Shown piece by piece: positions 248-22,711 of a stretch of DNA of 37,370 nucleotides. The stretch comes from an uncultured Eubacteriales bacterium. GTDB taxonomy: Bacteria > Bacillota > Clostridia > Oscillospirales > Oscillospiraceae. Numbering within the stretch: the stretch's first letter is position 1; each line of letters begins with the position of its first letter. A program made the position numbers and the translations under genes. The notes below the pieces were generated by a model that was not told the origin of the DNA, did no database searches, and saw nothing but the letters and a program-made list of their open reading frames with translations. The stretch is from contig USEU01000013.1 of the NCBI GenBank assembly GCA_900553805.1, forward strand, positions 1 to 37,370, read 5' to 3'.

Positions 248-275
248 TTGACTTTTTTTCGAGACAAGGTATAAT
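248..275 (+). promoter_or_regulatory. Sigma-A promoter of the CUT1 importer operon
   Basis: The -35 box TTGACT (248-253) and a perfect -10 box TATAAT (270-275) are separated by 16 bases. Transcription should start near 282, at the edge of the operator palindrome, leaving a leader of about 155 nt before the start codon at 440. Confidence 0.85.
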
Positions 276-281
276 AAAGAC

Positions 282-295
282 AAACGAAATCGTTT
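282..295 (+). promoter_or_regulatory. LacI-family operator-like palindrome
   Basis: The arms AAACGA and TCGTTT flank a two-base centre, directly after the -10 box, where a bound repressor would block initiation. The sequence resembles the sites near 4422, 9546, 9766 and 17683. The regulator at 9811 is the obvious candidate; binding is inferred. Confidence 0.6.
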
Positions 296-322: not shown

Positions 323-430
323 ACGAAAAGGGATATCCCTTTTCCCGTTCCATCCTTCGGATGAAACGATGGCCGCTGTATTGTAATGTGGTTATCGCTC
401 ACAAGAGCGTTAACAAAATAAATGAGGAGG
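323..430 (+). promoter_or_regulatory. Structured 5' leader (type A) of binding-protein gene
   Basis: Three hairpins follow in order. The first is a perfect 20-base palindrome (325-344). The second is a CATCC/GGATG stem with further pairs (346-368). The third (391-414) has a GTTA/TAAC base, a T-T mismatch, a 5-bp stem and a 4-base loop. TTAACAAAA and the Shine-Dalgarno GGAGG follow. The same arrangement, with compensatory changes in the stems, precedes the unrelated binding-protein gene at 11326. Function is unknown: mRNA stabilisation or a regulatory RNA are both possible. Confidence 0.6.
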
Positions 431-439
431 AAACGCAAA

Positions 440-1777
440 ATGAAAAAGCTTCTTGCGCTCGTCCTGGCTGCCGTGATGGTGTTCGGTATGATGTCCATTA
501 CTGCCGCTGCCGACGACAAAATCACCGTCAACCTGTGGGCCTTCACCGATGAAGTGCCCGGCATGATGACCAAGTTCCTGGAGGCCCATCCCGAGCTGGC
601 CGACAAGTACGAGATCAACACCACCATCATCGCCACCACCGACGGCGCTTATCAGCCCGCTCTGGACGCCGCTCTGGCAAACGGAGAGGTCGATTTGTAC
701 GCTGCCGAGGCCGCCTTCGTCCTGAAGTACACCCAGGGCGACGCTTCCGAGTATGCCGCTTCCTACGCTGACCTGGGCATCGATGTGGACGCCGAGCTGG
801 AGGCCGCTGACATCGCGCAGTACACCGTCGATATCGGCACCCGTCCCGCCGACGGCGCTCTGGTCGGTCTGGGCTACCAGGCTACCGGCGGCGTGTTCAT
901 CTATCGCCGCTCCATCGCCAAGGACGTTTGGGGCTCCGACGATCCCGAAGTCGTTGCTGAGAAGATCGGCGCCGGCTCCGGCAACTGGGACGCTTTCTTC
1001 GCTGCCGCTCAGGAAGTGAAGGACGCTGGCTACGCCATAATCTCCGGCGACGGCGATATGTGGCACGCTGTGGAGAACTCCTCCGAGACCGGCTGGATCG
1101 TGGACGACACCCTGAACATCGACCCCGCCCGTGAGGCTTTCCTGGATCTGTCCAAGAAGCTGGTTGACAACGGCTATCATCACGACACCACCGACTGGCA
1201 GGAAGGCTGGTTCGCCGACATGAAGAAGGACGGCGGCGTCCTGGGCTTCTACGGTCCTGCCTGGCTGATCAACTACACCATCGCTCCCAATGCCGGTGAG
1301 GGCGACAACTCCTCCGCTGGCGACTGGGGCGTCTGCGCTCCCAACATCGGCTTCTTCTGGGGCGGCACCTGGCTGCTGGCTGGCAAGAGCGTTGTCGGCA
1401 CCGAGAAGCAGGATCTGATCCGTGACTTCATCCGCTGGGTCACCTTGGACTGCACCGAGGACGGCCTGCAGTATAAGTGGGCCAACGGCACCCTGAACGG
1501 CGAAGGCGGCACCAAGGACTGCGTCGCTTCCGGCACCGTCATGGCCATGTCCAACGGCGAGCTGGACTTCCTGGCCGGCCAGAACATGTTCGATGCCTTC
1601 GTTCCTGCCAACGCTTACGCCAACGGCAAGAACCTGACCCAGTACGACGAGACCATCAACACCGCATGGCGTGATGCCGTCCGTCAGTACGCTCATGGCG
1701 AGGTCGACCGTGACACCGCTATTGAGAACTTCAAGACCACCGTTGCCGATACCCTGGGCATCGATGTCGAGTACTAA
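440..1777 (+). CDS. Sugar ABC transporter solute-binding protein (family 1, CUT1 type)
   Basis: Extracytoplasmic binding protein of a carbohydrate importer, 445 residues, the usual length for family 1. The start at 440 is chosen because GGAGG (426-430) lies 9 bases upstream and the protein then begins with a signal peptide: MKK, a hydrophobic stretch to about residue 20, then TAAADD. A longer reading from 422 would add a charged prefix and lacks its own ribosome site. The mature part begins with the family-typical ITVNLWAF. There is no lipobox cysteine, which is unusual for a binding protein in a single-membrane bacterium. Two permease genes follow after a hairpin, but no ATPase gene does. 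The bound sugar cannot be told from sequence; the beta-mannosidase and beta-glucosidases nearby suggest a plant beta-glycan oligosaccharide. GCT and CGT codons are frequent, as in highly expressed genes. Confidence 0.88.
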   Translation: MKKLLALVLAAVMVFGMMSITAAADDKITVNLWAFTDEVPGMMTKFLEAHPELADKYEINTTIIATTDGAYQPALDAALANGEVDLYAAEAAFVLKYTQGDASEYAASYADLGIDVDAELEAADIAQYTVDIGTRPADGALVGLGYQATGGVFIYRRSIAKDVWGSDDPEVVAEKIGAGSGNWDAFFAAAQEVKDAGYAIISGDGDMWHAVENSSETGWIVDDTLNIDPAREAFLDLSKKLVDNGYHHDTTDWQEGWFADMKKDGGVLGFYGPAWLINYTIAPNAGEGDNSSAGDWGVCAPNIGFFWGGTWLLAGKSVVGTEKQDLIRDFIRWVTLDCTEDGLQYKWANGTLNGEGGTKDCVASGTVMAMSNGELDFLAGQNMFDAFVPANAYANGKNLTQYDETINTAWRDAVRQYAHGEVDRDTAIENFKTTVADTLGIDVEY

Positions 1778-1817
1778 TTTACTGCGGTACTTAAACTTCA
1801 TCATCTGATTGCCGTGT

Positions 1818-1847
1818 GGGGATAGGCAGCTTCGGCGGCCTATCCCC
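1818..1847 (+). terminator. Intercistronic hairpin after the binding-protein gene
   Basis: The arms GGGGATAGGC (1818-1827) and GCCTATCCCC (1838-1847) enclose a TTCG-containing loop. No T-run follows, so it is more likely a 3' stabilising or partial-termination hairpin that keeps binding-protein mRNA in excess over permease mRNA. The Opp-type operon has a similar hairpin at 13169. Confidence 0.6.
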
Positions 1848-1884
1848 CCATTGGCTTGTCTTAAAGATAAGGGGGCGCATACGT

Positions 1885-2856
1885 ATGAACAAGTCGAAAA
1901 GCTTCAGCTACGCCAAATACGGTTACCTGTTCAGCATTCCTTTCGTGGTGGCATACCTGATCTTCTCGTTTTATCCCACCATCAACACCATCATCCTTGG
2001 CTTTACGGATGCCAAGGGCATGGCCGGCCTGACCAACTGGAATTTCCTCCCTGCCGAGGATTTGTTCAAGAATTTTATCGCGGTCCTGAAGGCCCCGACC
2101 TTCCGCAAATCTCTGGGCAATACCATCATTCTGTGGGTCGCCAACTTTATCCCGCAGATTTCTCTGGCATTGCTGCTCACCGCCTGGTTTACCTCCAAGC
2201 GCAATGAGCTGCGCGGGCAGGGCTTCTTCAAGGTCGTGTTCTATATGCCCAATATCATCACCGCCGCTTCCATCGCGATCCTGTTCAAGGCGCTGTTCGC
2301 CTACCCGGTGGGCCCTGTGAACAGCCTGCTGGTCAAGCTGGGCCTTGCCACAGAAGCCGTTAATTTCACAACAAAGGTCTGGCCCACCCGGGGCATCATC
2401 GCCTTCATCCAGTTCTGGATGTGGTACGGCAATACGATGATCGTCCTGATCTCCGGTGTGCTGGGCATTAACCCCGATCTGTACGAGGCGGCCGAGCTGG
2501 ATGGCGCGTCCTCCTCCCAGATGTTCTGGAAGATCACCATGCCCAACCTGAAGACCATCCTGCTGTACACCCTGATCACCAGCATGATCGGCGGCCTGAA
2601 CATGTATGATATCCCCAAGCTGTTCAACGACGGCAACCCGGCCAACTCCACGATGACCACCAATGTGTTCATCTACAAGCAGGCCTTCAGCGGCAGCTAC
2701 ATGTACGCCCGCGCCGCCGCGGCCTCCGTGATCATGTTTATCATTATTGCCGTTATCTCCATTTTTATGTTCATGATGTTCCAGGACTCCGACAAGAAGA
2801 TGGAAAGAGCCGCGAAGCGCGCCGCAAAGCGCGCGGCAAAGAAGGAGGTAGGCTGA
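1885..2856 (+). CDS. Sugar ABC transporter permease (CUT1, MalF/UgpA-like)
   Basis: Inner-membrane permease of 323 residues. The start at 1885 has GGGGG (1871-1875) upstream, and the protein starts with a short polar segment followed by TM1 (GYLFSIPFVVAYLIF). About six membrane segments are visible. The EAA loop that docks the ATPase begins near residue 201 (EAAELDGASS...ITMPNLK). It ends with a lysine/arginine-rich tail made of AAKR-type repeats before KEVG. It pairs with the permease that starts 2 bases after its stop. The ATPase is missing from this operon and is presumably a shared MsiK/UgpC-type protein encoded elsewhere, as is common for CUT1 systems in Firmicutes. Confidence 0.92.
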   Translation: MNKSKSFSYAKYGYLFSIPFVVAYLIFSFYPTINTIILGFTDAKGMAGLTNWNFLPAEDLFKNFIAVLKAPTFRKSLGNTIILWVANFIPQISLALLLTAWFTSKRNELRGQGFFKVVFYMPNIITAASIAILFKALFAYPVGPVNSLLVKLGLATEAVNFTTKVWPTRGIIAFIQFWMWYGNTMIVLISGVLGINPDLYEAAELDGASSSQMFWKITMPNLKTILLYTLITSMIGGLNMYDIPKLFNDGNPANSTMTTNVFIYKQAFSGSYMYARAAAASVIMFIIIAVISIFMFMMFQDSDKKMERAAKRAAKRAAKKEVG

Positions 2857-2857
2857 T

Positions 2858-3724
2858 ATGGCACAGAGATCCATTCACATTCGCCGTACCCCCGGCCAGA
2901 AGATCGTTCGGGTGATCGCGTATATCCTGTGCATCTTCCTGGCCTGCCTGAGCCTGTTCCCGTTCATCATCATGGTGGTGAACGCCACCCGCGACACCCC
3001 CAGCATCCAGTCCAGCCCGATCTCCTTCCTGTTCGGCAGCAACCTGAAGCGGAACTTCGAGATCCTGACCAGCAAGGACATGTTCAGCCCCTGGACGGGC
3101 CTGAAGAACTCCCTGATCATCTCCGTGGGCGCCACGGTGCTCACCGTCTACTTCTCCACCCTCACCGCCTACGCGCTGGTGGCCTATGAGTGGAAGCTGA
3201 AGGGGCCGTTCTTCGCCGCGATCCTGGCGGTGATGATGATCCCCGCCACCATTACCTCCATCGGCTTCTATCAGTTCATGTACCGCATCAAGTGGACAAA
3301 TAATCTGCTCCCGCTGATCCTGCCCGCCATCGCGGCCCCCGGCACGGTGTTCTTTATGCGGCAGTTCATGATCCCGGCGCTGCCCATGGAGATCGTGCAG
3401 TCCGCCCGGGTGGACGGCGCTTCCGAGTTCCGCACCTTTAACCAGATCGTGCTGCCCATTATGAAGCCCGCCATGGCGACCCAGGCCATCTTCGCGTTCG
3501 TCGCCAGCTGGAATAATCTGTTCATTCCTCAGATTTTGCTGACCAAAAAAGAGGTCTATACCATGCCCATCATGGTGTCCCTGCTCAACGGCGACATCTA
3601 CAAGGTGGAGTACGGCGCGATCTATCTGGGCATCCTGCTGACGGTGCTGCCCATTTTCGTCATCTATTTCTCCCTGTCCAAGTACATCATTGCCGGTGTC
3701 GCCCTGGGCGGTGTGAAGGAGTGA
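2858..3724 (+). CDS. Sugar ABC transporter permease (CUT1, MalG/UgpE-like)
   Basis: Second permease of the importer, 288 residues, the normal MalG-like length. TM1 lies near residues 17-38 (VIAYILCIFLACLSLFPFIIM), followed by the typical extracytoplasmic NATRD segment. The EAA loop starts near residue 181 (QSARVDGASEFRTF...IVLPIMKPA). The C-terminus GVALGGVKE is characteristic of the family. The ribosome site GGAGG (2844-2848) lies inside the end of the preceding gene, so translation of the two is probably coupled. The YesL-like gene starts four bases downstream. Confidence 0.92.
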   Translation: MAQRSIHIRRTPGQKIVRVIAYILCIFLACLSLFPFIIMVVNATRDTPSIQSSPISFLFGSNLKRNFEILTSKDMFSPWTGLKNSLIISVGATVLTVYFSTLTAYALVAYEWKLKGPFFAAILAVMMIPATITSIGFYQFMYRIKWTNNLLPLILPAIAAPGTVFFMRQFMIPALPMEIVQSARVDGASEFRTFNQIVLPIMKPAMATQAIFAFVASWNNLFIPQILLTKKEVYTMPIMVSLLNGDIYKVEYGAIYLGILLTVLPIFVIYFSLSKYIIAGVALGGVKE

Positions 3725-3727
3725 CCC

Positions 3728-4357
3728 ATGAATGCCCGCTGGCAGGATACGCCTGCCGCCGTGTTCCTGCGGCTCCTGGCTGACCTGATGATCGTCAACC
3801 TGCTGTCGCTGCTCTGCTCCCTCGGCGTCGTTACCATCGGCGCGTCCCTGACGGCGATGTATACCGTCCTGTTCCATCGCCAGCGGGACGAGGGAATGGT
3901 GAATGCCACCAAGACATTCTTCCAGGCATTTGCCAAAAATTTCTGGAAGGCCACCGCCCTGGAGCTGGTGCTGGCTGCGCTGTTGCTGGTGGCCGGTGTG
4001 GACTTCTGGTATGCCGCGTCCATCCCCAAGCCGGGCAGCGTCGTGTTTACCGTGGTTGCGGTTGTGATCGCGTTCCTGGCCCTGGTGGTTTTCGTGATGG
4101 CCTTTCCCCAGCTGGCGGTTTACAGCAACAGCGTGAAGAACTATCTGAAGAATGGCTTTGTGCTGTTTATGTGCGCCCCCCATGCGCTGCTGCTTTCCGC
4201 CGCTGCCTGGGCTGCCCCCTGGGTCCTGGCCTGTATCGAGCCGGAGGTGATCGTCCGCTTTGGCGTGATGTACCTCCTGTGGGGCTTCGCGTTCCCGGCC
4301 TATGCCACAGTCAGACTGCTGAGCAAGGTGTTCCGGAAAACAAAACAGGGCGGATGA
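3728..4357 (+). CDS. YesL-like membrane protein (DUF624 family)
   Basis: 209-residue membrane protein with about five hydrophobic segments: residues roughly 22-45, 78-97, 106-130, 145-168 and 180-200. The N-terminal pattern of TM1, a short loop with GASLTAMY and then a basic loop is typical of the YesL/DUF624 family. Members are regularly found in operons with CUT1 sugar importers, but their molecular role is not established. The start is set by AAGGAG (3716-3721), which overlaps the end of the upstream permease gene. It is the last gene of the importer operon; a strong hairpin follows. Confidence 0.85.
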   Translation: MNARWQDTPAAVFLRLLADLMIVNLLSLLCSLGVVTIGASLTAMYTVLFHRQRDEGMVNATKTFFQAFAKNFWKATALELVLAALLLVAGVDFWYAASIPKPGSVVFTVVAVVIAFLALVVFVMAFPQLAVYSNSVKNYLKNGFVLFMCAPHALLLSAAAWAAPWVLACIEPEVIVRFGVMYLLWGFAFPAYATVRLLSKVFRKTKQGG

Positions 4358-4379
4358 TCTCATCCTACTTTCTACCGGC

Positions 4380-4406
4380 GGGCGGCAGCAAGGAATGCTG
4401 CCGCCC
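4380..4406 (+). terminator. Hairpin at the end of the CUT1 operon
   Basis: A 10-bp GC-rich stem, GGGCGGCAGC (4380-4389) and GCTGCCGCCC (4397-4406), lies 22 bases after the YesL-like gene. There is no clear T-run, so termination efficiency is uncertain. Confidence 0.55.
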
Positions 4407-4410
4407 GTGG

Positions 4411-4439
4411 CTGCATTCCGGGCGAAAACGTGCTATGAT
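4411..4439 (+). promoter_or_regulatory. Possible promoter of the GH3 gene
   Basis: A weak -35 CTGCAT (4411-4416), a 17-base spacer and TATGAT (4434-4439). The operator-like sequence GCGAAAACGT lies between the boxes. If real, the fold-back element at 4482-4648 lies in the transcribed leader between this promoter and the GH3 start. Confidence 0.4.
4422..4431 (+). promoter_or_regulatory. LacI-family operator-like half site before GH3
   Basis: GCGAAAACGT is identical to the core of the site in front of the GH2 gene (minus strand, 9546-9559) and close to the one before lacI. It sits between the possible -35 and -10 boxes of the GH3 promoter. Confidence 0.45.
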
Positions 4440-4481
4440 CTCCCGGTATCTTCGCGGGAGCGGACATTGGCCGGGAGCACC

Positions 4482-4648
4482 TAGGGCAACACCGCGCAAT
4501 TGTGTCTGCGAGCCACAGCCGTCTTTTTGCCCCACTTCTTCAGTTTGAAAAACGAGAAATACATACAGTATTCCTTCGTTTTCCAAACTTTGAATTGAGC
4601 CAAAAATCCAGGCTGGGGCTTCTTGCCAAATTGTGCGGTGTTGCCCTA
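4482..4648. mobile_element. Fold-back MITE-like element, complete copy
   Basis: A 167-bp non-coding element bounded by 20-bp terminal inverted repeats (4482-4501 and 4629-4648) with one mismatch. Each end is bounded by TA, which fits a TA target duplication as made by IS630/mariner-type transposases. Inside, a second AT-rich inverted pair (about 4540-4560 and 4568-4590) makes the whole element fold on itself. Its right third repeats 1-52. The mobilising transposase is not in the window. Confidence 0.65.
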
Positions 4649-4683
4649 TGAAAATACATTCTCTGAATGGAAGGAGAACTCTT

Positions 4684-6774
4684 ATGAATCGTGCGGAAGC
4701 AAGGAAAAAGGCCGAGGCGCTGGTTGCGCAGATGGATGTGCTGGAGGCAGCCGCCCAGCTACGCTATGATGCCCCCGCGCTGGACCGGCTGCATATTCCT
4801 GAATATAACTGGTGGAACGAGGCGCTTCACGGCGTGGCCCGGGCGGGCGTTGCCACCAGTTTCCCCCAGGCCATCGGTATGGCCGCCGCCTTCGACCCGG
4901 ACATGGTGGAGCGGCTGGGCGATATCGCCGCCACCGAGGGGCGGGCGAAGTACAACGCCCTGTCCGGGAAGGACGACCGGGATATCTACAAGGGGCTGAC
5001 CTTCTGGTCGCCCAACATCAATATTTTCCGCGACCCCCGCTGGGGGCGGGGCCATGAGACCTACGGCGAGGATCCCTACCTCACCGCCCGTCTGGGCCTG
5101 GCCTATATCCGGGGGCTTCAGGGCAGCGGAGAATTCCTGAAATCCGCCGCCTGCGCCAAGCACTTTGCCGTCCATTCCGGCCCGGAGGCCGAGCGGCACC
5201 GTTTTGACGTCCACCCCAGCAAAAAGGACATGGAGGAGACCTACCTCCCCGCCTTTGAGGCGGCGGTAAAGCAGGGAGATGTGGAGGCCGTCATGGGCGC
5301 GTACAACGCGGTCAACGGCTACCCCTGCTGCGGAAGCCCGGAGCTGCTTCAGGGATACCTGCGGGAAAAATGGGGCTTCCAGGGTCATGTGGTCTCCGAT
5401 TGCTGGGCGATCAACGATTTCCACGAGCATCACCACTTCACCGATACCCCTGCCGAGTCCAGCGCCGCCGCGCTGAAGGCGGGCACCGACCTGAACTGCG
5501 GCTGCACCTACCGCTGCCTGATCACGGCCCTGGCCCAGAAGCTGATCAGCGAGGACGATATCCGCCGCGCCGCCGTCCGCCTGTTCACCACCCGCTATCT
5601 GCTGGGCATCATGGACGGCCAGCAGACGGAGTATGACCGCATCCCATACAGCGTCGTGGAATGCAAGGAGCATGTGAGCGCCGCCCTGGAGGCGGCGGAA
5701 AAGGGGATCGTCCTGCTGAAGAACGACGGCGTCCTGCCCCTGCGTAAGGAAAAGCTGAACGCCATTGCCGTGGTCGGCCCCAATGCCAACAGCCGCGTGG
5801 CCCTGGTGGGCAATTACCATGGCACCTCCTCGCGCTACATCACCGTGCTGGAGGGGATCCAGGACGAGGTGGGCGAGGACGTGCGGGTCTACTATTCCGA
5901 GGGCTGCCACCTGTTCAAGGAGCGGACGGAAAATCTGGCCCATCCCGGCGATCGGATCTCCGAGGCGCTGATCGCGGCGGATCAGTCCGACGTGGTGGTG
6001 CTGGTGCTGGGCCTGGACGAGACCCTGGAGGGCGAGGAGGGCGACACCGGCAACGCCGATGCCTCCGGCGACAAGCTCAGCCTGCTGCTGCCCCAGAGCC
6101 AGCGTGACCTGGCCCAGGCGGTGCTGGGCTGCGGCAAGCCGGTGATCCTGGCGCTGATGTCCGGCTCCGCCATCGATATCAGCGACATTGCCCCCCGCTG
6201 CGCGGCGGTGGTCCAGCTGTGGTACCCCGGCGCGCGGGGCGGAAGGGCGGCGGCCGATATCCTGTTCGGCAAGCGCTCCCCCTCCGGCAAGCTGCCCGTG
6301 ACCTTCTATTACCAGCACGCGCTGGAGGAGATGCCGGCCTTTACGGATTACTCCATGCGCAACCGCACCTATCGCTACTATACCGGCAAGCCCCTGTATC
6401 CCTTCGGCTACGGCCTGACCTACGGCGACACCCAGGTGCTCAGCGTTTCCGCCGATACGCACCGGGCCAGCGTAAGGGTGATCAACCGCGGCGCACCCAC
6501 CGAGGACGTGGTGCAGCTGTATATCAAGGATGCCTCATCCCCGGACGCCACCGTCAACCCCAAGCTCTGCGGCTTCCGCCGCGTCCATCTGGATCGGAAC
6601 GAGGAAAAGGAAATCCAGATCGACCTGCCCGCCTCCGCGCTTCAGGTTTGCAGCGACGAGGGCGTATGGCGCCCCGGCAGCGGGAGATGGGATCTGTACG
6701 CCGCCTTTGGCCAGCCCGATCCCCGCACCCAGGAGTTGACCGGCAAGAGCGCCGCCCACTGCGTTATTGAATAA
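4684..6774 (+). CDS. Glycoside hydrolase family 3 (beta-glucosidase/beta-xylosidase type)
   Basis: Exo-acting beta-glycosidase of 696 residues without signal peptide, so probably cytoplasmic and acting on imported oligosaccharides. The start at 4684 has GGAAGGAG (4669-4676) upstream. The N-terminal GH3 barrel has the motif EYNWWNEALHG near residues 39-49 and the nucleophile loop VVSDCW with Asp239. The alpha/beta second domain (about 335-560) carries KNDGVLPL and GNYHGTSS. A fibronectin-III-like domain ends the protein (about 590-696, after YPFGYGLTYG). The EYNWWNEALHG subgroup contains beta-glucosidases, beta-xylosidases and arabinofuranosidases, so the substrate is not settled. It stands alone between the CUT1 operon and the convergent GH2 gene. 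Confidence 0.9.
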   Translation: MNRAEARKKAEALVAQMDVLEAAAQLRYDAPALDRLHIPEYNWWNEALHGVARAGVATSFPQAIGMAAAFDPDMVERLGDIAATEGRAKYNALSGKDDRDIYKGLTFWSPNINIFRDPRWGRGHETYGEDPYLTARLGLAYIRGLQGSGEFLKSAACAKHFAVHSGPEAERHRFDVHPSKKDMEETYLPAFEAAVKQGDVEAVMGAYNAVNGYPCCGSPELLQGYLREKWGFQGHVVSDCWAINDFHEHHHFTDTPAESSAAALKAGTDLNCGCTYRCLITALAQKLISEDDIRRAAVRLFTTRYLLGIMDGQQTEYDRIPYSVVECKEHVSAALEAAEKGIVLLKNDGVLPLRKEKLNAIAVVGPNANSRVALVGNYHGTSSRYITVLEGIQDEVGEDVRVYYSEGCHLFKERTENLAHPGDRISEALIAADQSDVVVLVLGLDETLEGEEGDTGNADASGDKLSLLLPQSQRDLAQAVLGCGKPVILALMSGSAIDISDIAPRCAAVVQLWYPGARGGRAAADILFGKRSPSGKLPVTFYYQHALEEMPAFTDYSMRNRTYRYYTGKPLYPFGYGLTYGDTQVLSVSADTHRASVRVINRGAPTEDVVQLYIKDASSPDATVNPKLCGFRRVHLDRNEEKEIQIDLPASALQVCSDEGVWRPGSGRWDLYAAFGQPDPRTQELTGKSAAHCVIE

Positions 6775-7090: not shown

Positions 7091-7106
7091 TGAAAAAATG
7101 GGATGC

Positions 7107-9533
7107 TCAACGAATGTCGTATACGCTCCGGGCGCGCAGCTCCTTCACCTCGCCCCGCAGCACCCTGACCCGCTTGGTCCCGGCGTTCAGGTCGAAGTAG
7201 TTGTCCTCCAGCAGGGTGTCCGGGCCGGCCAGAATTTCCACGCTCCGGGCGTAGGCCTTGGCGGTGACGACGATCTCGTCGCCCTCCTGCCGGACCTCCA
7301 GCCGGGGATCGGCGAAGTGGAAGTGCTTGGGGGCGCAGAAGAGCACGGTGCCCTCGCCCACCGGTTTACCTGCCGCGTCCTCGAGGGAGTAGGAGTAGTA
7401 GCAGCCGTAGGTGTCCTGATGGGAGAAGTCCTGCTCCGGCAGCCACTGGGTGCTCAGGGGAGCCACGCTCACGTCAAAGCTGCCGCGCTCAATGATGCTG
7501 GCGTCCGGCCGGCGCAGGGCCCAGTGGGCCTTGCCGGTGAAGGGCCGCAGCGTCTCGTTGCTCACGTTCAGCCGGGCGGATTTCTTCAGAGCAAAGGGCT
7601 CGGCGTTGACGTTGGTGTTCTGGCTCAGGATGCCCTCCTCATGGCAGGAGATCAGCACGGGAGCGAAGAACCGCTTCTCGTAGTAGTGCAGCGCCTTCCA
7701 GCGGCCGAAGTAGTCGATGGAGGCCCAGCTGGCTACCGGCCAGCAGTCGTTCAGCTGCCATACCACCGCGCCCATGCAGTGCTTGTCGTCCCGGTTGCGC
7801 CGCCAGTGCTCCACGCCGTACTGCATGGCCTGAGCCTGGAGCAGCTGAGAGGCATACACCAGGAGCTCCATGTCCCGGGGATACAGATACATCTGGGAGA
7901 GATAGGATACGATCTTGCCGTTGGCGGAGGCGTTGCGCTGATGCTTCTCCATCACATAGGAGAAGACGTTCCGATCCTCGGGCAGGGTGAAGGCCTGGAT
8001 GGTCTCCATGCAGGGGAAGCTCTGGAAGCCGAACTCGGACACGTAGCGGAACAGATAATTCCGATAGTCCGTGAAGGGCTTCAGCCCGTGCCACACATCC
8101 CAGTAGTGCACGTCGCCCCGGGTGGGATCCTGGGGCTTGTCGAAGCTGCCGCCGCTGGAGGGGGAGGCGGGCCAGTAGAAGGTCTGGGGGGCCTCCGTCT
8201 TCAGGATCTTGGGGATGATGTACTCGTACATCTTGATGTAGTCCGCTTTCTGGCGCGGGCAGTCCACCCACTCGCCCACGTTCACGAATTCCTCCATCTC
8301 GTTGTTGCCGCACAGCAGGGCCAGGGAGGGATGGTGGCGCAGACGGCGCACATTGTCCAGGAACTCCGCCCGGATGTTCTCTTCGAAGTCGTCCGTCAGG
8401 TTGTACACGGCGCAGGCGAACATGAAGTCCTGCCACACCAGCAGGCCCAGCTCGTCGCAGATGTCATAGAAATAGTCGTCGGGGTAGTAGCCGCCGCCCC
8501 ATACCCGGATGCAGTTCATGTTGGCCAGCTTGGCATCCTCCAGCAGGCGGCGGGTGCGGCCGGGATTCACCCGGGGCAGCAGATTGTCTTCGGGGATGTA
8601 GTCCGCGCCCATGGCGAACACGTCCACGCCGTTGACGCAGTGGCAGAAGCATTCGCCCCACTGATCCTTTTTCCGGGTCACCGTCATGGTCCGCAGGCCG
8701 ATGCGGCGCTTCCAGCTGTCCAGCCCGTCGCCCAGGGTCACCTCCACGGTGTACAGCGGCTGCGCGCCCAGACCGTTGGGCCACCACAGCCGGGGATCAT
8801 CGATAACGATTTCGGCCCGTTCTCCCCGGGCGGTGCGCACCGTTCCGTCGGGAGCGGTGACGGTGACGGTCACGGGCGCGGAGCCGGTCAGCTCGGTCAC
8901 ATGGGTGTTCACCGTCAGGGTGACCTTGCCGCCACTATGCTCCTGGAGCACCAGCACGTCCCGGATGCGGGCGGTGGTGATGCCGATGAGCTGGATGCTT
9001 CTCCAGATGCCCGCGTCGGGCAGGCGGGGACCCCAGTCCCAACCGAACATGCAGTGGGCCTTGCGCAGGTTGGGGAAGCCCACCATGGCGTCGGAGGAGC
9101 CGTCCGCCCTGGATTCGGCGTAGGACTTCTTAATAAAGCGGGTGGGGGAATCAAATTTGACGGAAATGTGGTTTTCTCCGGCTTTCAGCACGGATTTTAC
9201 GTCAAATTCATAGATTCTGTGCATGTTTTTGGCGGTCCCCACCACGGTGCCGTTAACGGTGACGGTGGCCAGGGTATCCAGTCCGTCGCAGCGCAGCAGC
9301 ACCGCGTCGCTTTCCAGCAGGCCGGCCGGTACGGTGAAGTCCCGGCTGTATATGAAGTCGTTGTCCATGATCTTCAGCGCTTCGTTTTCGTTGTCCCGGT
9401 AGAACGGGTCCTCGATCTGTCCGGCGGTGAGCAGATCATGATACACCGAGCCGGGAACGGTGGCGCTGACGCGGGGGAACCGGCTGCCGGGAATGTCCAG
9501 GACCCAGGCGCCGTTCAGGGTGAGTGTTTTCAT
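7107..9533 (-). CDS. Glycoside hydrolase family 2 beta-mannosidase
   Basis: Releases terminal beta-linked mannose from manno- or glucomanno-oligosaccharides. 808 residues, no signal peptide, hence intracellular. The N-terminal jelly-roll domain carries the beta-mannosidase signature VPGSVYHDLL...DPFYRDNE (about 26-50). The barrel domain holds the acid/base Glu412 in CGNNEME and the nucleophile Glu500 in YVSEFGFQ. VWGGGYYPDD and VVWQLNDCWP are further family marks. The length is typical. ATG at 9533 has GGAGGT (9539-9544) close upstream. It diverges from the LacI-type regulator and has its own consensus promoter and operator-like site, so local repression is likely. Other GH2 activities (beta-galactosidase, glucuronidase) fit the motifs less well. 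Confidence 0.92.
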   Translation of the reverse strand: MKTLTLNGAWVLDIPGSRFPRVSATVPGSVYHDLLTAGQIEDPFYRDNENEALKIMDNDFIYSRDFTVPAGLLESDAVLLRCDGLDTLATVTVNGTVVGTAKNMHRIYEFDVKSVLKAGENHISVKFDSPTRFIKKSYAESRADGSSDAMVGFPNLRKAHCMFGWDWGPRLPDAGIWRSIQLIGITTARIRDVLVLQEHSGGKVTLTVNTHVTELTGSAPVTVTVTAPDGTVRTARGERAEIVIDDPRLWWPNGLGAQPLYTVEVTLGDGLDSWKRRIGLRTMTVTRKKDQWGECFCHCVNGVDVFAMGADYIPEDNLLPRVNPGRTRRLLEDAKLANMNCIRVWGGGYYPDDYFYDICDELGLLVWQDFMFACAVYNLTDDFEENIRAEFLDNVRRLRHHPSLALLCGNNEMEEFVNVGEWVDCPRQKADYIKMYEYIIPKILKTEAPQTFYWPASPSSGGSFDKPQDPTRGDVHYWDVWHGLKPFTDYRNYLFRYVSEFGFQSFPCMETIQAFTLPEDRNVFSYVMEKHQRNASANGKIVSYLSQMYLYPRDMELLVYASQLLQAQAMQYGVEHWRRNRDDKHCMGAVVWQLNDCWPVASWASIDYFGRWKALHYYEKRFFAPVLISCHEEGILSQNTNVNAEPFALKKSARLNVSNETLRPFTGKAHWALRRPDASIIERGSFDVSVAPLSTQWLPEQDFSHQDTYGCYYSYSLEDAAGKPVGEGTVLFCAPKHFHFADPRLEVRQEGDEIVVTAKAYARSVEILAGPDTLLEDNYFDLNAGTKRVRVLRGEVKELRARSVYDIR

Positions 9534-9545
9534 TATAATACCTCC

Positions 9546-9559
9546 GAATACGTTTTCGC
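9546..9559 (-). promoter_or_regulatory. LacI-family operator-like site before GH2
   Basis: On the + strand GAATACGTTTTCGC. It shares ACGTTTTCG with the site before lacI and lies between the GH2 promoter and its ribosome-binding site. Confidence 0.6.
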
Positions 9560-9583
9560 AATAGTAAACAAGGGAGTACCCTT

Positions 9584-9612
9584 ACTATACGATGCTTCTT
9601 GTGAATTGTCAA
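9584..9612 (-). promoter_or_regulatory. Sigma-A promoter of the GH2 gene
   Basis: Read on the minus strand: TTGACA (9612-9607), 17-base spacer, TATAGT (9589-9584). Nearly consensus. It fires away from the lacI promoter 114 bases away. Confidence 0.88.
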
Positions 9613-9725
9613 CAGACAAAGCAGAGACAAAAGTGTTTTATGGGCTATTTGCACGAACGGAGAGCGTTGAATTTGGGCGTACTGCACAAATAATTCATAT
9701 TCTGCTTGCTTTTTCGTAATAACTA

Positions 9726-9754
9726 TTGACAGATGGATGCCGTGAACTTATAAT
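9726..9754 (+). promoter_or_regulatory. Consensus sigma-A promoter of the LacI-family gene
   Basis: A perfect TTGACA (9726-9731), a 17-base spacer and a perfect TATAAT (9749-9754). The strength and the operator just downstream suggest autorepression. Confidence 0.9.
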
Positions 9755-9810: not shown

Positions 9811-10812
9811 ATGGTAACATTAAAGATGCTGGCCAAGGAATGCGACGTCTCCGTCGCCACGGTCAGCAAGGCGCTCAACGGCGCACCTGACATCAGCGCC
9901 GAGACTGCCGCCCGTATTCAGCGGGCAGCCGTGGCCATGGGCTATACCCCCAATTCCGCCGCCCGTGCCCTCAAGACCAGCCGCTCTCACAATCTGGGCG
10001 TGATCTTTGACGACGGCACCAGCAGCGGCCTGACCCACGAGCATTTCGCCTACGTGCTGGACAGCCTCAAGCGCCGGGCGGAATCCCTGGGCTACGACAT
10101 CACCCTCATCAGCGTGCAGCCCGGCCCCTGGGGCGCGGATTACGTCAGTCACGTCCGCTTCCGCAGCTGCGACGGCGTGGCCGTCCTGGTCGCCGACAAT
10201 CCGGCGGCCACCATCGAGGAATTTATCCACACCGGCACGCCGGTGGTCTCCGTGGATTACCACCACAACAATTGCAGCTGCATCGAGTCCGACAACGTCA
10301 CCGGCATGCGCAGCCTCCTGGAATATGTCTATGATCAGGGCCACCGCCGCATCGCCGCCATCTTCGGCGAGGATACCGCCGTCAGCCGCATCCGGGTGTC
10401 CAGCTTCTTCAATACCTGCGCCCGGCTGGGCCTGGAGATCCCCAATGAGTACGTCATCCACGCCCGCTATCACGACGCCGACCTTTCCGCCGCCGCCACC
10501 CGCCAGCTGATGCGCCTGCCGGAGCCGCCCACCTGCATCCTGTATCCCGACGATTTCTCCTTCTTCGGAGGCAAGCGGGAGCTGGAGAGCATGGGCCTGT
10601 CCGTCCCCGAGGATGTGAGCGCCGCCGGCTACGACGGCATCTCCGTGGGCAAGGTCATTGCCCTGACCACCGTCCAGCAGGACACCGCCGCCATCGGCGC
10701 GGCCATTGCCGACGAGCTGATCCGCGCCGTGGAGGAGGGCAGAGGCTTCCTGCCCCGCCAGATCACCATTCCCTGCTCCCTGATCCCCGGCGCCACGGTT
10801 CGAAGGATTTAG
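9811..10812 (+). CDS. LacI-family transcriptional regulator
   Basis: DNA-binding, sugar-responsive regulator, 333 residues, full family length. The N-terminal helix-turn-helix (about residues 3-24) reads LAKECDVSVATVSKALNG, followed by the hinge helix region PNSAARALKTSRS. The rest is a periplasmic-binding-protein-like sensor domain (about 62-333) with the family patterns DQGHRRIAAI and the Asp/Gly-rich end of the sensor. It lies divergent to the GH2 beta-mannosidase, and operator-like sites are seen at its own promoter and before the GH2, GH3, GH94 and CUT1 genes. The inducer is not known; a beta-glycan-derived sugar is the natural guess. ATG at 9811 lies at the head of the HTH, without upstream in-frame coding. 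Only a weak Shine-Dalgarno (AGGTAGGG) is present. Confidence 0.92.
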   Translation: MVTLKMLAKECDVSVATVSKALNGAPDISAETAARIQRAAVAMGYTPNSAARALKTSRSHNLGVIFDDGTSSGLTHEHFAYVLDSLKRRAESLGYDITLISVQPGPWGADYVSHVRFRSCDGVAVLVADNPAATIEEFIHTGTPVVSVDYHHNNCSCIESDNVTGMRSLLEYVYDQGHRRIAAIFGEDTAVSRIRVSSFFNTCARLGLEIPNEYVIHARYHDADLSAAATRQLMRLPEPPTCILYPDDFSFFGGKRELESMGLSVPEDVSAAGYDGISVGKVIALTTVQQDTAAIGAAIADELIRAVEEGRGFLPRQITIPCSLIPGATVRRI

Positions 10813-10979: not shown

Positions 10980-11172
10980 CTGCCCCCTTTGGGGGTGGTG
11001 CTCCGCGCAGCGAATCAAGATTGTAATGATTGCCGGTGGCAATCATACCTCTGTTTTGTGCCGCGAAGCGGCAAAGGGGGTGCCGTCGGTACCTTTGAGC
11101 CGTTACCATTCAACGAACCACACCCCCTCAGTCAGGCCGTTCGGCCTGCCAGCTCCCCCATCGGGGAGCCCA
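10980..11172 (+). repeat. Dispersed multi-hairpin repeat, copy 1
   Basis: A roughly 195-bp intergenic repeat. It starts with CTGCCCCCTTTGGGGG, contains the hairpins TGATTGCC/GGCAATCA and TGCCGC/GCGGCA, then CAGGCC/GGCCTG, and ends with the AGCTCCCCC/GGGGAGCC hairpin. Copies 2-4 are at 26757, 29438 and 34706, in the same orientation. No open reading frame is conserved among the copies. Confidence 0.85.
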
Positions 11173-11197
11173 GATTCCCCCCCCGCCGAAGTTAAAA

Positions 11198-11318
11198 ACG
11201 GAAAAAAGGAGTGCTCCTTTTTTCATTTCATCCTGACGGATGAAATGATGATCTTCTGTTTCCGGCGGAAATGAACGTAGTTATTGCCCTTCGGGGTTTT
11301 AACAAAAATACAAGGAGG
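11198..11318 (+). promoter_or_regulatory. Structured 5' leader (type B) of Opp-type binding-protein gene
   Basis: Three hairpins in the same order as at 323-430. The first is a 24-base interrupted palindrome (11201-11224) ending in six T. The second is a perfect 9-bp stem (11225-11246). The third (11280-11303) has the same GTTA/TAAC base, T-T mismatch and 4-base loop as its counterpart. The inner stem sequences differ by paired changes. Hairpin 1 resembles an intrinsic terminator, so an attenuator is possible. No promoter was found for this gene; it may lie in or before the repeat. Confidence 0.6.
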
Positions 11319-11325
11319 ATTCATC

Positions 11326-13152
11326 ATGAAGAAAATCACCAAGCTCTTTGCGATGCTGATCGTCGCTGCTATGGTCTGCGGTTTGTTCGCAGTCTGCGGC
11401 ACCTCTGCATCCGGCGTTGTCGGTATGTCCGACGGCGACGTCGTTCTCCCCCGTGAAGAGACCCTGTACTTCGCAGGCCAGCAGTGGGGCGCTGTCAACA
11501 GCTGGAATATTGTTGGCACCAACCAGAACAATGCTATGGCCATTGCCGGCGGTGCCGGCGGCTACCGTACCACCATGTTCGAGACCCTGTTCATGTTCAA
11601 CCCTCTGACCGGCGAGAAGACCGGCCTGCTGGCTGACTCCTACGAGTGGAACGAGGACCTGACCGAGATGACCGTGTCCCTGAAGGACGCCGCTCACTGG
11701 TCCGACGGCACCCCCGTCACCGCTGCTGACGTGGTAGCCACCTGGGACGTGGGCGTGCTGACCAACAACGGCACCGGCGCCGGCAACAAGGCTTACGTCG
11801 CGGGCATCGAAGCCACTGGCGACAAGACCTTCGTGATCAAGGCCGTCCTGACCGAAGATGGCCAGCCCGTCAACCCCCTGAAGATCGAAGACTTCATCTG
11901 CGGCACCCCCATTGCCCAGGCCGCCTGGATCAAGACCCTGTGCGACCGCTGCGACAATGATCCCACCAAGATCCTGAACGATGCCGGTGAAGACGTCGTT
12001 TGGAGCGGCCCCTACCACAAGTATTATGCCGATGACCAGAAGGTCGTTCTGGTCCGTGACGACAACTACTGGGGCCAGGATGAGTCCATGTGGGGCAAGC
12101 TGCCGGTTCCCAAGTATCTGGCCCACGTTATCTTCGCCGACAACGCCGCCGGTGAGCTGGCCCTGAAGGCCGGCGAGGTGGATGTCTGCCAGCAGTTCAT
12201 CGGCAACATCCAGAACCTGTGGCTGGAAGACGATCTGCCCATCTCCACCTACTATGATGAAGCCCCCTACGGCGTCTGCCTGACCATGCCCACCGCATGG
12301 TACAACATGAACATCCCCGTGATCGCCGAGAACGCCGCTCTGCGGAAGGCCATCGCCATGGCCACCGACTACGAGGCCATCATTGCCAACGCCATGACCA
12401 ACCAGTCCCCCACCTTCGCCGATGTTCCCCGCTCCCTGATGAACCCCACCGACGGCGAGCAGGCTCTGTACGACCACGAGGCCGTTAAGGACCTGCAGTG
12501 GGCCGGCAACGACATCGACGGCGCCAACAAGCTGCTGGACGAGGCCGGTCTGCTGGACTCCGACGGCGACGGCTGGCGTGAATACAACGGCGAGAAGATC
12601 TCCCTGAACGCTGTCTGCCCCAACGGCTGGTCCGACTGGCAGGCTGCCATGCAGATCGTTGCCGCCGCTGGCGACAAGATCGGCATCTCCATCGAGCCCG
12701 AGTATCCTGAGTGGGACATCATGCAGACCCGCTTCACCGACCCCACCCAGACCGACTACGCCATCTTCATGTGGTCTCCCGACGCTGCTGCTCCCTCCAT
12801 GCCTTGGGGCCGCTGCAACCAGTTCCTGTCCAGCCAGTTCGTTGGCCTGCAGAACAACTGGTCCGGCAACTGGGGCCAGTACGTCAACGAAGAGGCTGAC
12901 AAGATCCTGGCTGAGATCCCCCTGACCACCGACCACGACAAGCTGGTTGAGCTGTACACCGAGCTGGTCAAGATCTACCTGACCGACGTGCCCAGCTTCT
13001 CCCTGATGTATCGTCCTTCCGTGTTCCACGCTGTCAATGAGAGCGTTTGGACCAACTATCCCACCGGCGACGACGGCCGCAACATTCCTCCCATGGACTG
13101 CACCGATGGCTACGGCATCGCTGCTCTGTACGACCTGGAACTGGTCGGCTAA
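11326..13152 (+). CDS. Opp/Dpp-type ABC transporter solute-binding protein (family 5)
   Basis: Large extracytoplasmic binding protein, 608 residues, family 5 (SBP_bac_5). The start at 11326 has AAGGAGGA (11312-11319) upstream and gives a signal peptide (MKKITKLF, then a hydrophobic run to about residue 24). Cysteines occur at the end of the signal but neither fits a normal lipobox (AVC, MVC), so lipid anchoring is doubtful. Family patterns include YEWNEDLTEMTVSLKDAAHWSDGTPVTAADV, given here only as location (about residues 107-137). Family 5 proteins bind peptides, but several members, for example in Thermotoga, bind cello- or manno-oligosaccharides. The GH94/GH1 genes directly downstream favour a sugar ligand here. 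The codon choice (GCT, CGT) suggests high expression. Confidence 0.87.
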   Translation: MKKITKLFAMLIVAAMVCGLFAVCGTSASGVVGMSDGDVVLPREETLYFAGQQWGAVNSWNIVGTNQNNAMAIAGGAGGYRTTMFETLFMFNPLTGEKTGLLADSYEWNEDLTEMTVSLKDAAHWSDGTPVTAADVVATWDVGVLTNNGTGAGNKAYVAGIEATGDKTFVIKAVLTEDGQPVNPLKIEDFICGTPIAQAAWIKTLCDRCDNDPTKILNDAGEDVVWSGPYHKYYADDQKVVLVRDDNYWGQDESMWGKLPVPKYLAHVIFADNAAGELALKAGEVDVCQQFIGNIQNLWLEDDLPISTYYDEAPYGVCLTMPTAWYNMNIPVIAENAALRKAIAMATDYEAIIANAMTNQSPTFADVPRSLMNPTDGEQALYDHEAVKDLQWAGNDIDGANKLLDEAGLLDSDGDGWREYNGEKISLNAVCPNGWSDWQAAMQIVAAAGDKIGISIEPEYPEWDIMQTRFTDPTQTDYAIFMWSPDAAAPSMPWGRCNQFLSSQFVGLQNNWSGNWGQYVNEEADKILAEIPLTTDHDKLVELYTELVKIYLTDVPSFSLMYRPSVFHAVNESVWTNYPTGDDGRNIPPMDCTDGYGIAALYDLELVG

Positions 13153-13198: not shown

Positions 13199-13343
13199 TC
13201 TTCTCAAATGAATGCAAAACCCCCATGCCGCCTTTCCCTACCCGGGAGCCGGGCGGCATCCGGGCCCCCTCCGGGTGCGTATTCCGGCACCGGCGGCGGA
13301 TTTTGCCTTCTGCACTAAACAGAAACCACTGGAGGGTGAGCAA

Positions 13344-14348
13344 ATGAAAGGTTACAGAAAATATTTCGGCAAGAAGCTGCTGTGGTTCCTCATCACGCTG
13401 GTGTTTGCCGTCATTCTTAATTTCGTCCTGCCCCGGCTGATGCCGTCCGACCCCGTTTCCTCCATCACCGGCAAGCTGGCCGCCGGTATGTCCGACTCCG
13501 CCGCCGTCCGTGAAATTTACGAGCACTATCAGGAGGAGTTCGGCACCAACAAGCCCATGATCGTCCAGTTCGGCATGTTCGTCAAGAATATGCTCCATGG
13601 CAATTTCGGCAAATCCTTTAGTCAGTACCCCCGCGAGGTGAGCGACATCCTCGCCTCCTCCGTCGGCTGGACGGTGGCCTTGCAGCTGCCCGCCATTCTG
13701 GTCGGCTGGATCCTGGGCAACGTCCTCGGCGCAATGGCTGCATACCTGCGCAAGGGCTTTGATAAGGTCCTGCTGCCGGTATCCATCTTCCTCGGAAATG
13801 TCCCTGCCTTCGCAATGGCAGTTGTTTTGCTGGTCGTCTTCGGCGTCAATCTGAAGATCGCGCCCCTGGCAGGCGGCTATGCAAGTGATATGATCCCCAA
13901 CCTCTCCTGGCCGTTCATCAAGTCGGTCATCTCCCATTATCAGCTGCCCTTCTGGTCCATCGTCATCATCAGCATCGGCGGCCAGGCCATCGGCATGCGC
14001 TCCATGTCCATCTATGAGCTGAACGCCGACTACGTCAAGTACAGCCGCTTCCTGGGCATCAAGGACAGCAAGATCGTCGGCTACGTGTTCCGCAACGCCA
14101 TGCTGCCCCAGATCACCGGCCTGGCCATGAGCCTGGGCACCATGATGGGCGGCGCGCTGGTGGCGGAGAAGATCTTCTCCTACCCCGGCCTGGGCAACAC
14201 CATGTACAAAGCCGTGGTGGCCGCGGATTATCCCCTGATCTCTGCCTGTACCCTGATCATCACCATCATGGTCCTGCTGGCCAACTTCCTGCTGGACATC
14301 GTGTATGGTCTGATCGATCCCCGGGTCAAGGCGGCTCAGGTGGACTAG
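13344..14348 (+). CDS. Opp/Dpp-type ABC transporter permease (DppB-like)
   Basis: Membrane permease of 334 residues. The start at 13344 is preferred over an upstream in-frame ATG at 13212 because GGAGGGTGAG (13331-13340) lies just before it and the protein then starts [20 protein letters not shown], a normal TM1. The extracytoplasmic loop contains the family-typical [11 protein letters not shown]. Membrane segments follow to the C-terminus. The ATPase-docking loop is at about 230-262 ([12 protein letters not shown]...[10 protein letters not shown]). It partners with the DppC-like permease 18 bases downstream. Confidence 0.9.
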
Positions 14349-14366
14349 GGAAAGGGGGCACTTACC

Positions 14367-15611
14367 ATGAAAAATACACTGCGTAATGTTTTCCATTCCT
14401 CCAAATTTGTGGCAGGCTTCATTATCTTCATGTTCCTGCTGGTCACCATTATCGTCTATCCCCTCATCAACCCCGGCAGTCCCCTGGAGCAGATCGGCGT
14501 CGGCACCTTTGCCAGGCCCGGTACATATGTCTCCCTGTACGATGCCGCCAAGACCAACCCCGACCGGGAGCGGGAGACCCTGCGTCTTACCGACGCCGAC
14601 GACAAGCGTCTGGCCAAGGCCCTCAGCGATTCCGACCGGGTGCTGATGGTGGAGTGGCTGGGCCTGAAGGGCGTGGACCTGGAGGGTGTGGACTACCAGG
14701 ACACCGAGGCCCTGCTGAAGCTGTGGCATGAGAACTACGATTCCACCTTCAAGCCCAAGGGCATGACCTCCGCCGCCCAGAAGAAATACAAGCGGCTGAA
14801 CGACGCCCTGCTGGACCTGCAGACCGCTGAGAACCTCACCGTCTCCTCCGAGGGCGAGGAGCTGAGCACCATCAAGAAGAACGACTATGTGAACGTCAGC
14901 GCCGTCACCAACGTCAAGAACCTGCCCCTGGGCACCGATAACTTCGGCCGGGACGTGCTGAAGGAGCTGGTGGGCGCCACCAAGACCTCCCTGGTGGTGG
15001 GCCTGGTGGCCGGTGTGGTGGCTACCCTGATCGGCCTGACCCTGGGCCTGCTCTCCGGCTACATCGGCGGCGTGGTGGATGATGTCATCATGTTCGTCAC
15101 CAACCTGTTCACCGTCATCCCCGGCTTCATCCTGCTGATCCTGATCTCCTATTCCATCAGCCCGGAGCTGCGCGGCCCCACCACCGTGGCCGTGGTCATC
15201 GGTCTGACCAGCTGGACCTGGACGGCCCGTTCCGTCCGCTCCCAGGTCATCTCCCTGCGCAACCGGGACCATGTGAACCTGTCCAAGCTCTCCGGCCACA
15301 GCCTGATCCGCATTGTGGTCACCGATATCCTGCCCTATATTGCGTCCTACGTGGTAATGGCTTTCATCCTCCAGGTGTCCTCCGGCATCCTGAGCGAGGC
15401 GCAGCTGTCCCTGCTGGGCCTCGGCCCCAAGACCACCGTCACCCCCACCCTGGGCCTGATGATGAACTGGGCAATGAGCTACTCCGCGCACATCAACGGT
15501 ACCTGGTGGGCCTACCTGCCTGTGATCCTGACCATCACCCTCATCTCGTTCTCCCTGAACCTGATGAACACCGGCCTGGATCAGGTGTTCAACCCCACCC
15601 TGAGAGACTAA
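14367..15611 (+). CDS. Opp/Dpp-type ABC transporter permease (DppC-like) with large insertion
   Basis: Membrane permease, 414 residues against about 300 in most DppC proteins. TM1 lies at about 14-33. The conserved [11 protein letters not shown] begins at residue 188, so roughly 150 residues separate them, some 100 more than usual. The extra segment (about 40-180) is polar, rich in Asp, Lys and Glu, and predicted to be outside the membrane. The rest is normal: five further membrane segments and the docking loop ([15 protein letters not shown]...DILPYI) near 305-325. The insertion might contact the binding protein or ligand; that is inference. AAAGGGGG precedes the ATG. Confidence 0.9.
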
Positions 15612-15621
15612 GGAGGCAGTT

Positions 15622-16651: not shown

Positions 16652-16659
<8 letters not shown>
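15622..16659 (+). CDS. Opp/Dpp-type ABC transporter ATP-binding protein (DppD-like)
   Basis: Cytoplasmic ATPase subunit, 345 residues. Walker A is at residues 53-61 (GESGCGKST), the signature is LSGGMKQR, and Walker B is [12 protein letters not shown]. The H-loop follows in FITHELP. The C-terminal extension typical of oligopeptide-type ATPases carries [18 protein letters not shown]; in some relatives such cysteines bind an Fe-S cluster. The start has AGGAGG 7 bases upstream. Its end overlaps the next ATPase gene by 8 bases, so translation of the two is coupled. It forms a heterodimer with the DppF-like subunit. Confidence 0.93.
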
Positions 16660-17509
<850 letters not shown>

Positions 17510-17530
17510 TTTTCCCGCCCATTTTTACCA

Positions 17531-17556
17531 CCCCCGGCGAACCCCTTCGCCGGGGG
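17531..17556 (+). terminator. Rho-independent terminator of the Opp-type importer operon
   Basis: 11-bp stem CCCCCGGCGAA (17531-17541) and TTCGCCGGGGG (17546-17556), followed by CCTTTTC. It separates the importer from the GH94-GH1 pair. Confidence 0.88.
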
Positions 17557-17646
17557 CCTTTTCAAAACCCCGCCCGTTGAACGAAACGCACCCCGTCACG
17601 TTGAATGGAATGTGCCCCTGCAAACAGTCCATGCAAAAAATGCGCA

Positions 17647-17675: not shown

Positions 17676-17682
17676 GGAACCG

Positions 17683-17715: not shown

Positions 17716-17754
17716 GATCGGGCAACGTTCAAATCAATTCAAAGGAGAGTCGAT

Positions 17755-22706: not shown

Positions 22707-22711
22707 GTTTA

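Follow-up and report, generated by a model that had tools for sequence, protein, structure and literature searches.

A stretch of 37,370 nucleotides of contig USEU01000013.1, here called the window, carries two importer gene clusters, and in each the first gene encodes a substrate-binding protein (SBP). The two binding proteins are of different families, and the leaders in front of their genes, approximately 10.9 kb apart, are alike. How binding proteins come to exceed permeases in gut Oscillospiraceae is not described in the literature searched, and a leader conserved in shape and common to importers of two families would be a simple and testable part of the answer. It would also show that leaders can be reused as modules.

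Gene content of the two importer operons

Genes, leader elements and putative control sites are shown in Table 1. The binding protein at the head of operon A has no match in Pfam or NCBIfam. One homologue, from a Clostridia bacterium, is 76% identical and bears the name "carbohydrate ABC transporter substrate-binding protein", and a second, from an Oscillospiraceae bacterium, shares 68% identity. The genes of operon A (440–6774) are assumed to form one transcript, and the GH94 and GH1 genes of operon B may have a promoter of their own. Judging from the gene families, the two operons together look like a single locus for the uptake and cleavage of beta-glucosides or cello-oligosaccharides.

Table 1. 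Positions in the window of genes, leader elements and putative control sites.
Feature	Position	Strand	Basis or remark
Promoter-like site upstream of leader A (TTGACT, 16, TATAAT)	248–275	+	11/12 consensus matches; pattern match only
LacI-family-type palindrome AAACGAAATCGTTT, close to where transcript A probably starts	282–295	+	Sole AAACGN4CGTTT site with 0 mismatches in the window
Leader A hairpin 1: 8 pairs, loop of 4	325–344	+	-9.7 kcal/mol
Leader A hairpin 2: 9 pairs, one C.A mismatch, loop of 3	346–368	+	-7.8 kcal/mol
Leader A possible short upstream ORF, MAAVL, stop 4 bases 5' of hairpin 3	369–386	+	May be chance
Leader A hairpin 3: 4 pairs, U.U, 5 pairs, loop of 4, then AAAA	391–414	+	-9.8 kcal/mol
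Gene A Shine-Dalgarno sequence GAGGAGGA	424–431	+	Read directly
Operon A gene 1: carbohydrate ABC importer binding protein (CUT1 type judging from adjacent genes)	440–1777	+	Name of a 76% identical homologue
Operon A downstream genes: two permeases, DUF624 protein, GH3 glycosidase	1816–6774	+	Family matches
LacI-family regulator, between operons A and B	9811–10812	+	Family match
Start of conserved block in B: unchanged at the protein level in P0245, different further upstream	11182–11199	+	Protein comparison
Leader B hairpin 1: 10 pairs, loop of 4	11201–11224	+	-9.6 kcal/mol
Leader B hairpin 2: 10 perfect pairs, loop of 4	11224–11247	+	-12.1 kcal/mol
Leader B possible short upstream ORF, MIFCFRRK, stop 5 bases 5' of hairpin 3	11248–11274	+	Residues unchanged in P0245; may be chance
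Leader B hairpin 3: 4 pairs, two U.U, 4 pairs, loop of 4, then AAAA	11280–11303	+	-8.1 kcal/mol
Gene B Shine-Dalgarno sequence AGGAGGA	11313–11319	+	Read directly
Operon B gene 1: Opp-type ABC importer binding protein (SBP_bac_5)	11326–13152	+	Family match
Operon B downstream genes: two permeases, two ATPases, GH94 phosphorylase, GH1 glycosidase	13212–21503	+	Family matches

The promoter-like site at 248–275 lies upstream of leader A, which would thus be within a transcript. The palindrome at 282–295 is a putative operator. A second LacI-type palindrome is found at 17678–17691, upstream of the GH94 gene, and both are possible sites of the regulator encoded at 9811–10812. In total, 11 AAACGN4CGTTT sites with up to 2 mismatches were found in the window, which is not above the 8.5 expected by chance. 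No recognisable promoter was detected directly upstream of leader B in a sequence scan, and this leader may be transcribed from a promoter-like site at 9726–9754, through the LacI-family regulator gene.

Further features were noted in the window. A direct repeat of 56 bases (96% identical) occupies positions 1–56, upstream of operon A, and 4594–4649, at the start of the GH3 gene. Two long ORFs, at 7098–9719 (873 aa) and 22670–24454 (594 aa), lack any match in Pfam or NCBIfam. PNPase shares 63% identity with its counterpart in Vescimonas fastidiosa and 60% with the one in Subdoligranulum variabile, which makes a source within the Oscillospiraceae most likely.

Similarity and predicted fold of the leaders

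A preliminary description of this DNA held that the genes for two binding proteins of different families share a leader, and this was borne out. Local alignment of leader A (321–419) with leader B (11198–11309) gave a score of 61.5, which was reached by none of 5000 dinucleotide-shuffled pairs (maximum 48.5). With hairpin 1 removed the score was 48.0, and the maximum in 5000 shuffles was 43.0. When 9314 pieces of the window were compared on both strands, each leader was the best non-self match of the other. No similarity was seen in the 100 bases preceding hairpin 1. Within the two genes, the initial 120 coding bases are weakly similar (score 41.5, with 14 of 2000 shuffles as good), which could reflect a common origin of the operon head or merely two signal peptides.

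The blocks GGATGAAA[CT]GATG, GT[GA]GTTAT and TTAACAAAA are present in both leaders, as described, and three hairpins can be formed in each (A 325–414, B 11201–11303). The order of the hairpins is identical, and the distance from the end of hairpin 3 to the start codon is 25 bases in A and 22 in B. Outside the stems, the conserved blocks are GATG, GT[GA]G and AAAA. Other details of the description required revision. The hairpin 2 stem occurs in both leaders but is longer than stated, with 9 pairs and a C.A mismatch in A and 10 pairs in B. The geometry of hairpin 3 is not identical, B having two U.U mismatches and just 4 inner pairs and A one U.U and 5. Paired changes were found, four in all, and hairpin 1 accounts for two of the four.

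An interspersed repeat with a CTCCCC...GGGGAG hairpin is present at 11085–11173 and near 26930, 29613 and 34885, as three long copies and one partial copy. One copy ends directly upstream of leader B, near 11174, and nothing similar was seen in the third copy of the leader, P0245, described below.

Both leaders fold better than shuffled sequences, with z scores of -3.7 (A) and -5.0 (B) and none of 200 shuffles as good. The two-sequence alignment offers 28 possible pairs, of which 20 are invariant and 4 have both bases changed; 1 has a single changed base, and 3 no longer pair in one of the two leaders. Four double changes were reached by 26 of 500 shuffles, and slid registers gave 0 or 1, in what is a comparison of two sequences only. 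Pairing is retained in 53 of the 56 paired cells (94.6%), a proportion matched by 16 of 500 shuffles, with 42–57% in slid registers. Differences between A and B fall in 14 of 56 paired columns, 8 of 11 loop columns, 10 of 22 linker columns and 7 of 25 columns of the 3' tail that includes the Shine-Dalgarno site. Thus, the stems are kept no better than this tail. The covariation between A and B would by itself be borderline, suggestive but not conclusive.

No further leader came from any DNA collection. A third, partial copy was detected using a spurious intergenic ORF (11026–11274) that runs through hairpins 1 and 2 of leader B, residues 43–82 of which were searched as protein. Two predicted proteins in ENA data, P0244 and P0245, were matched. 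Both are B-type, and they are the sole records found beyond A and B. P0244 reads as the B locus with a frame change upstream. P0245 shares just its last 30 residues with the query and is otherwise unlike it, which places the start of the conserved block near 11182, and the unrelated stretch upstream indicates that the block was kept on its own. Of these 30 codons, three are changed relative to B, each of them touching the loop of hairpin 1 or hairpin 2. Expressed by class, changes are found in 3 of 4 codons that touch a loop and in none of the 12 confined to stems (Fisher p=0.007, or p=0.001 when all 30 codons are counted), in a test that is post hoc but independent of the A/B comparison, and made at the protein level, where silent changes are invisible. 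The possible codons of P0245 permit a fully paired hairpin 2 with a new four-base loop. The pattern points in the direction of the A/B comparison, namely that shape has been kept. The selection on RNA structure proposed earlier thus gains support from two sides, the 4 double changes in 28 pairs (reached by 26 of 500 shuffles) and the confinement of third-copy differences to loop-touching codons. With two full sequences and one partial sequence, seen as protein, as its evidence base, the element may be called a new, unproven member of the structured 5' leaders.

Hairpin 1 has a pairing probability of at least 0.96 in both leaders. For leader B, hairpin 2 has 0.82–0.85 and hairpin 3 has 0.98–0.99. 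Hairpin 3 of leader A is weaker (mean 0.45–0.53) because positions 368–376 can pair with 388–396. Hairpin 2 of leader A has a probability of 0.86, 0.67 or 0.14 according to the length of flanking sequence folded, and with the least flanking sequence the 5' arm of this hairpin is predicted to pair with the Shine-Dalgarno region. Hence, the predicted fold of leader A is not settled, while leader B would keep all three hairpins at 0.82 or above.

The total predicted pairing of the Shine-Dalgarno sequence is 0.58 in A and 0.81 in B, values that shuffled sequences also give. That the linker between hairpins 2 and 3 hides the Shine-Dalgarno sequence was suggested by the lowest-energy fold of B and by a fold enforced on A. 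As a common trait this was rejected by a shuffle test, in which pairing with the linker was 0.81 in B (8.5% of 400 dinucleotide shuffles as high) and 0.02 in A (68% as high).

Distribution of the leader

The window has no match in Rfam 15 at the gathering cut-off. Below it, the lowest E-value on leader B was 0.016, for isrK (20 bits, cut-off 50) over 11152–11223, and the highest score was 20.3 bits, for FTHFS (cut-off 72.6); leader A had four weak matches. The earlier impression that the leader is not a known family therefore stands, at least as far as Rfam is concerned. The leader is likewise not described in the literature searched. It may be among the thousands of microbiome RNAs listed as candidates in the supplement to PMC8040213.

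One genome from each of 84,980 species was searched with an exact pattern of the shared blocks, and the 6 matches were judged by eye to be due to chance. The same judgement was made for exact patterns in viral contigs, which gave 3, 10, 14, 0 and 0 matches. Several of the set of 14 directly precede an ATG, and none of these has GATGAAA[CT]GATG in the preceding 100 bases. GH94 was found in neither of two chance-match genomes, and the viral contigs yielded no relatives of the A and B binding proteins. Among the 120 homologues of the A protein listed, the longer N-termini resemble, by eye, mostly lipoprotein linkers and not a translated leader. Distant blastn searches of both leaders against plasmids, and of leader B against phages, returned pieces covering 17–29% of the query with E-values of 0.1–0.4.

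A covariance model built from A and B recovered both leaders in the window, together with four weak antisense echoes of their own palindromes. Over four records, one of them a large Paenibacillus record, the model gave two weak matches (E 0.9 and 5.9) under stricter filters. A second scan covered 1.70 Mb, made up of V. fastidiosa NZ_AP023416.1 (861 kb) and four S. variabile records (842 kb). This produced 17 matches at E-values up to 10, of which 10 were read and none was convincing. The top match (25.8 bits, E=0.0055; NZ_AP023416 29713–29833, - strand) consists of two G+C-rich hairpins directly before a gene with a cadherin-like annotation. Its shape fits but the conserved blocks are absent, and it was rejected. 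Likewise rejected was the second match (18.8 bits), which precedes groES and is presumably a CIRCE-like element. The remaining matches that were read look unrelated, several having little beyond a Shine-Dalgarno site and an ATG. One exact GATGAAATGATG in Vescimonas is within the RNA polymerase alpha gene.

Leaders of related binding-protein genes were also read by eye. The set included 8 from S. variabile (7 of its 10 binding-protein loci and one further SBP) and one from Paenibacillus, where the relative of the A protein is 60% identical, and the leader was absent from all 9. The other three of the 10 loci had been removed by a filter on the start codon. A wider occurrence before many binding-protein genes was therefore not supported, two B-type protein records being all that was found beyond A and B. 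Nor were there convincing wider homologues among the 10 covariance-model matches read in the 1.70 Mb of two related species. In this form the element seems not to be common, and the searches, one made with exact letters and the other in two genera, suggest a narrow spread. Strong covariation support is for this reason out of reach here.

Two of the records, OY725879 and NZ_AP023416, are labelled as plasmids but look like pieces of chromosomes. The S. variabile record carries PNPase, and that of V. fastidiosa includes rpsO, rpsD, the RNA polymerase alpha gene and groL.

Possible roles of the leader

A shape that is kept while the sequence has changed suggests a control or stabilising element, absent from the RNA libraries searched, and we infer that it acts at the mRNA level. 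We tentatively regard leaders A and B as copies of a single cis-acting structured 5' leader that stabilises the mRNA or aids translation of the binding protein, a reading to which we give somewhat less than an even chance. The leader would be located in the 5' untranslated region of the binding-protein gene, the first gene of each importer operon. In the likeliest mechanism, the 5' region of the mRNA would be shielded from decay by the tandem hairpins together with the A-rich single strand that precedes the Shine-Dalgarno sequence, the same features would help ribosomes load at a strong Shine-Dalgarno site, and the binding protein would be made in excess over the permeases. The leader would be constitutive, with on/off control left to transcription, possibly through the LacI-type regulator gene between the operons.

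Precedents for such a protective role are the 5' stem-loops of ompA and aprE mRNAs, where hairpins near a strong Shine-Dalgarno site lengthen the life of mRNAs for abundant exported proteins. To our knowledge, these have no sequence relation to leaders A and B, and the present leader differs in having three hairpins and in preceding two genes of different families. Some observations fit the protective reading poorly. In both leaders the fold prediction leaves the Shine-Dalgarno sequence mostly paired (0.58 and 0.81), which is not expected of a ribosome site that is always open. Also unfavourable are the three pairs lost in one copy, the strong competitors of hairpins 2 and 3 in A and the lack of a recognisable promoter directly upstream of B. 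Furthermore, 5' protectors usually act at the 5' end of the transcript, and hairpin 1 of leader A lies approximately 40 bases after the presumed start.

A parallel in gene context comes from cellulolytic Clostridia. SBPs are commonly produced in excess, and stem-loops adjacent to SBP genes were found there to set transcript levels and the ratio of SBP to translocator transcripts (PMC9045158). Like the present leader, they are tied to binding-protein genes at the heads of importer operons. However, they are described there as partial terminators immediately downstream of the SBP gene (PMC9045158), whereas the present element is upstream.

A regulated RNA is considered unlikely. Such a riboswitch or protein-binding leader would respond to a signal linked to sugars and would govern both importers by switching between the three-hairpin form and an alternative pairing. 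Both targets are importers of one catabolic locus, as expected of a common signal, and conserved blocks (GATG, GT[GA]G and AAAA) lie outside the stems. In leader A, the competing helix of 368–376 with 388–396 takes up the conserved GTGGTTAT and the GATG that follows hairpin 2, and the 5' arm of hairpin 2 can pair with the Shine-Dalgarno region in the shortest stretch folded. However, the competing helix is strong in A only, hairpin 3 of B being predicted at 0.98–0.99. Pairing of the linker with the Shine-Dalgarno sequence is likewise confined to B (0.81, against 0.02 in A, where it is no better than for shuffled linkers). Known aptamers have junctions or large conserved loops; neither is present here, and no Rfam family matched at its cut-off. 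A broader form of this reading, to which we attach the same low probability, would be a lineage-specific class of regulatory RNA in gut Oscillospiraceae. It would sense a breakdown product or an RNA-binding protein and co-control unrelated importers of one glycan locus, and its leaders would move between operons independently of the genes.

Two described regulatory leaders of ABC transporter genes are comparable. ROSE-like RNA thermometers are also structured 5' leaders of such genes, SBP genes included, and have a U(U/C)GCU motif paired with the Shine-Dalgarno sequence (PMC11342760). In the present leaders this motif is found once, in A at 395–399, inside hairpin 3, and is missing from B, and a ROSE-like thermometer was rejected by sequence. 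The livJ motif, a riboswitch candidate, is likewise found upstream of genes with ABC binding-protein domains (PMC11109978). It is mostly from Streptomyces, precedes LIVBP-like domains and has the Shine-Dalgarno sequence in a P1 bulge (PMC11109978), and by this description it differs from the present leader.

The leaders could also be a neutral leftover of a duplicated operon head, copied together with the gene start and now decaying without function. The location of both copies in one locus, 10.9 kb apart, would be expected in this case, as would the lack of a convincing copy elsewhere, the alignment of the first 120 coding bases (41.5, 14 of 2000 shuffles as good) and a 3' tail that is kept as well as the stems. 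Nevertheless, such a leftover appears quite unlikely, as change is less frequent in stem columns (14 of 56) than in loop columns (8 of 11), A and B are dissimilar in the 100 bases upstream of hairpin 1, and P0245 retains the block beside an unrelated upstream stretch, with its changes confined to loop-touching codons.

Hairpins 1 and 2 double as inverted repeats in the DNA, and a common transcription factor could in principle bind them in both operons, making the RNA hairpins a by-product. Several features make this decidedly unlikely. The centre of hairpin 2 is TTC (3 bases) in A and TGAC (4 bases) in B, and is changed again in back-translated P0245, and the core of hairpin 1 changes with its pairing kept. 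The non-palindromic GT[GA]GTTAT and TTAACAAAA, near the start codon, are conserved too, and a separate LacI-type palindrome is already located at the promoter of A.

Attenuation by a translated upstream ORF, in which a ribosome on the 5 (A) or 8 (B) codons that begin with the ATG after hairpin 2 and end 4–5 bases 5' of hairpin 3 would melt that hairpin, is very unlikely: the start codon is conserved in A, B and P0245, the frame end is kept in P0245, and the stop is close to hairpin 3 in both leaders (approximately 8% by chance for each, calculated after the pattern was seen), but the peptides MAAVL and MIFCFRRK are unlike, and the sole GGA resembling a ribosome site is within the hairpin 2 stem.

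An intrinsic terminator or attenuator has a G+C-rich stem followed by a run of T, and scans of the + strand found none of the hairpins of A and B to be of this kind. On the - strand, hairpin 1 of leader B is terminator-like and could thus end transcripts arriving from the other side.
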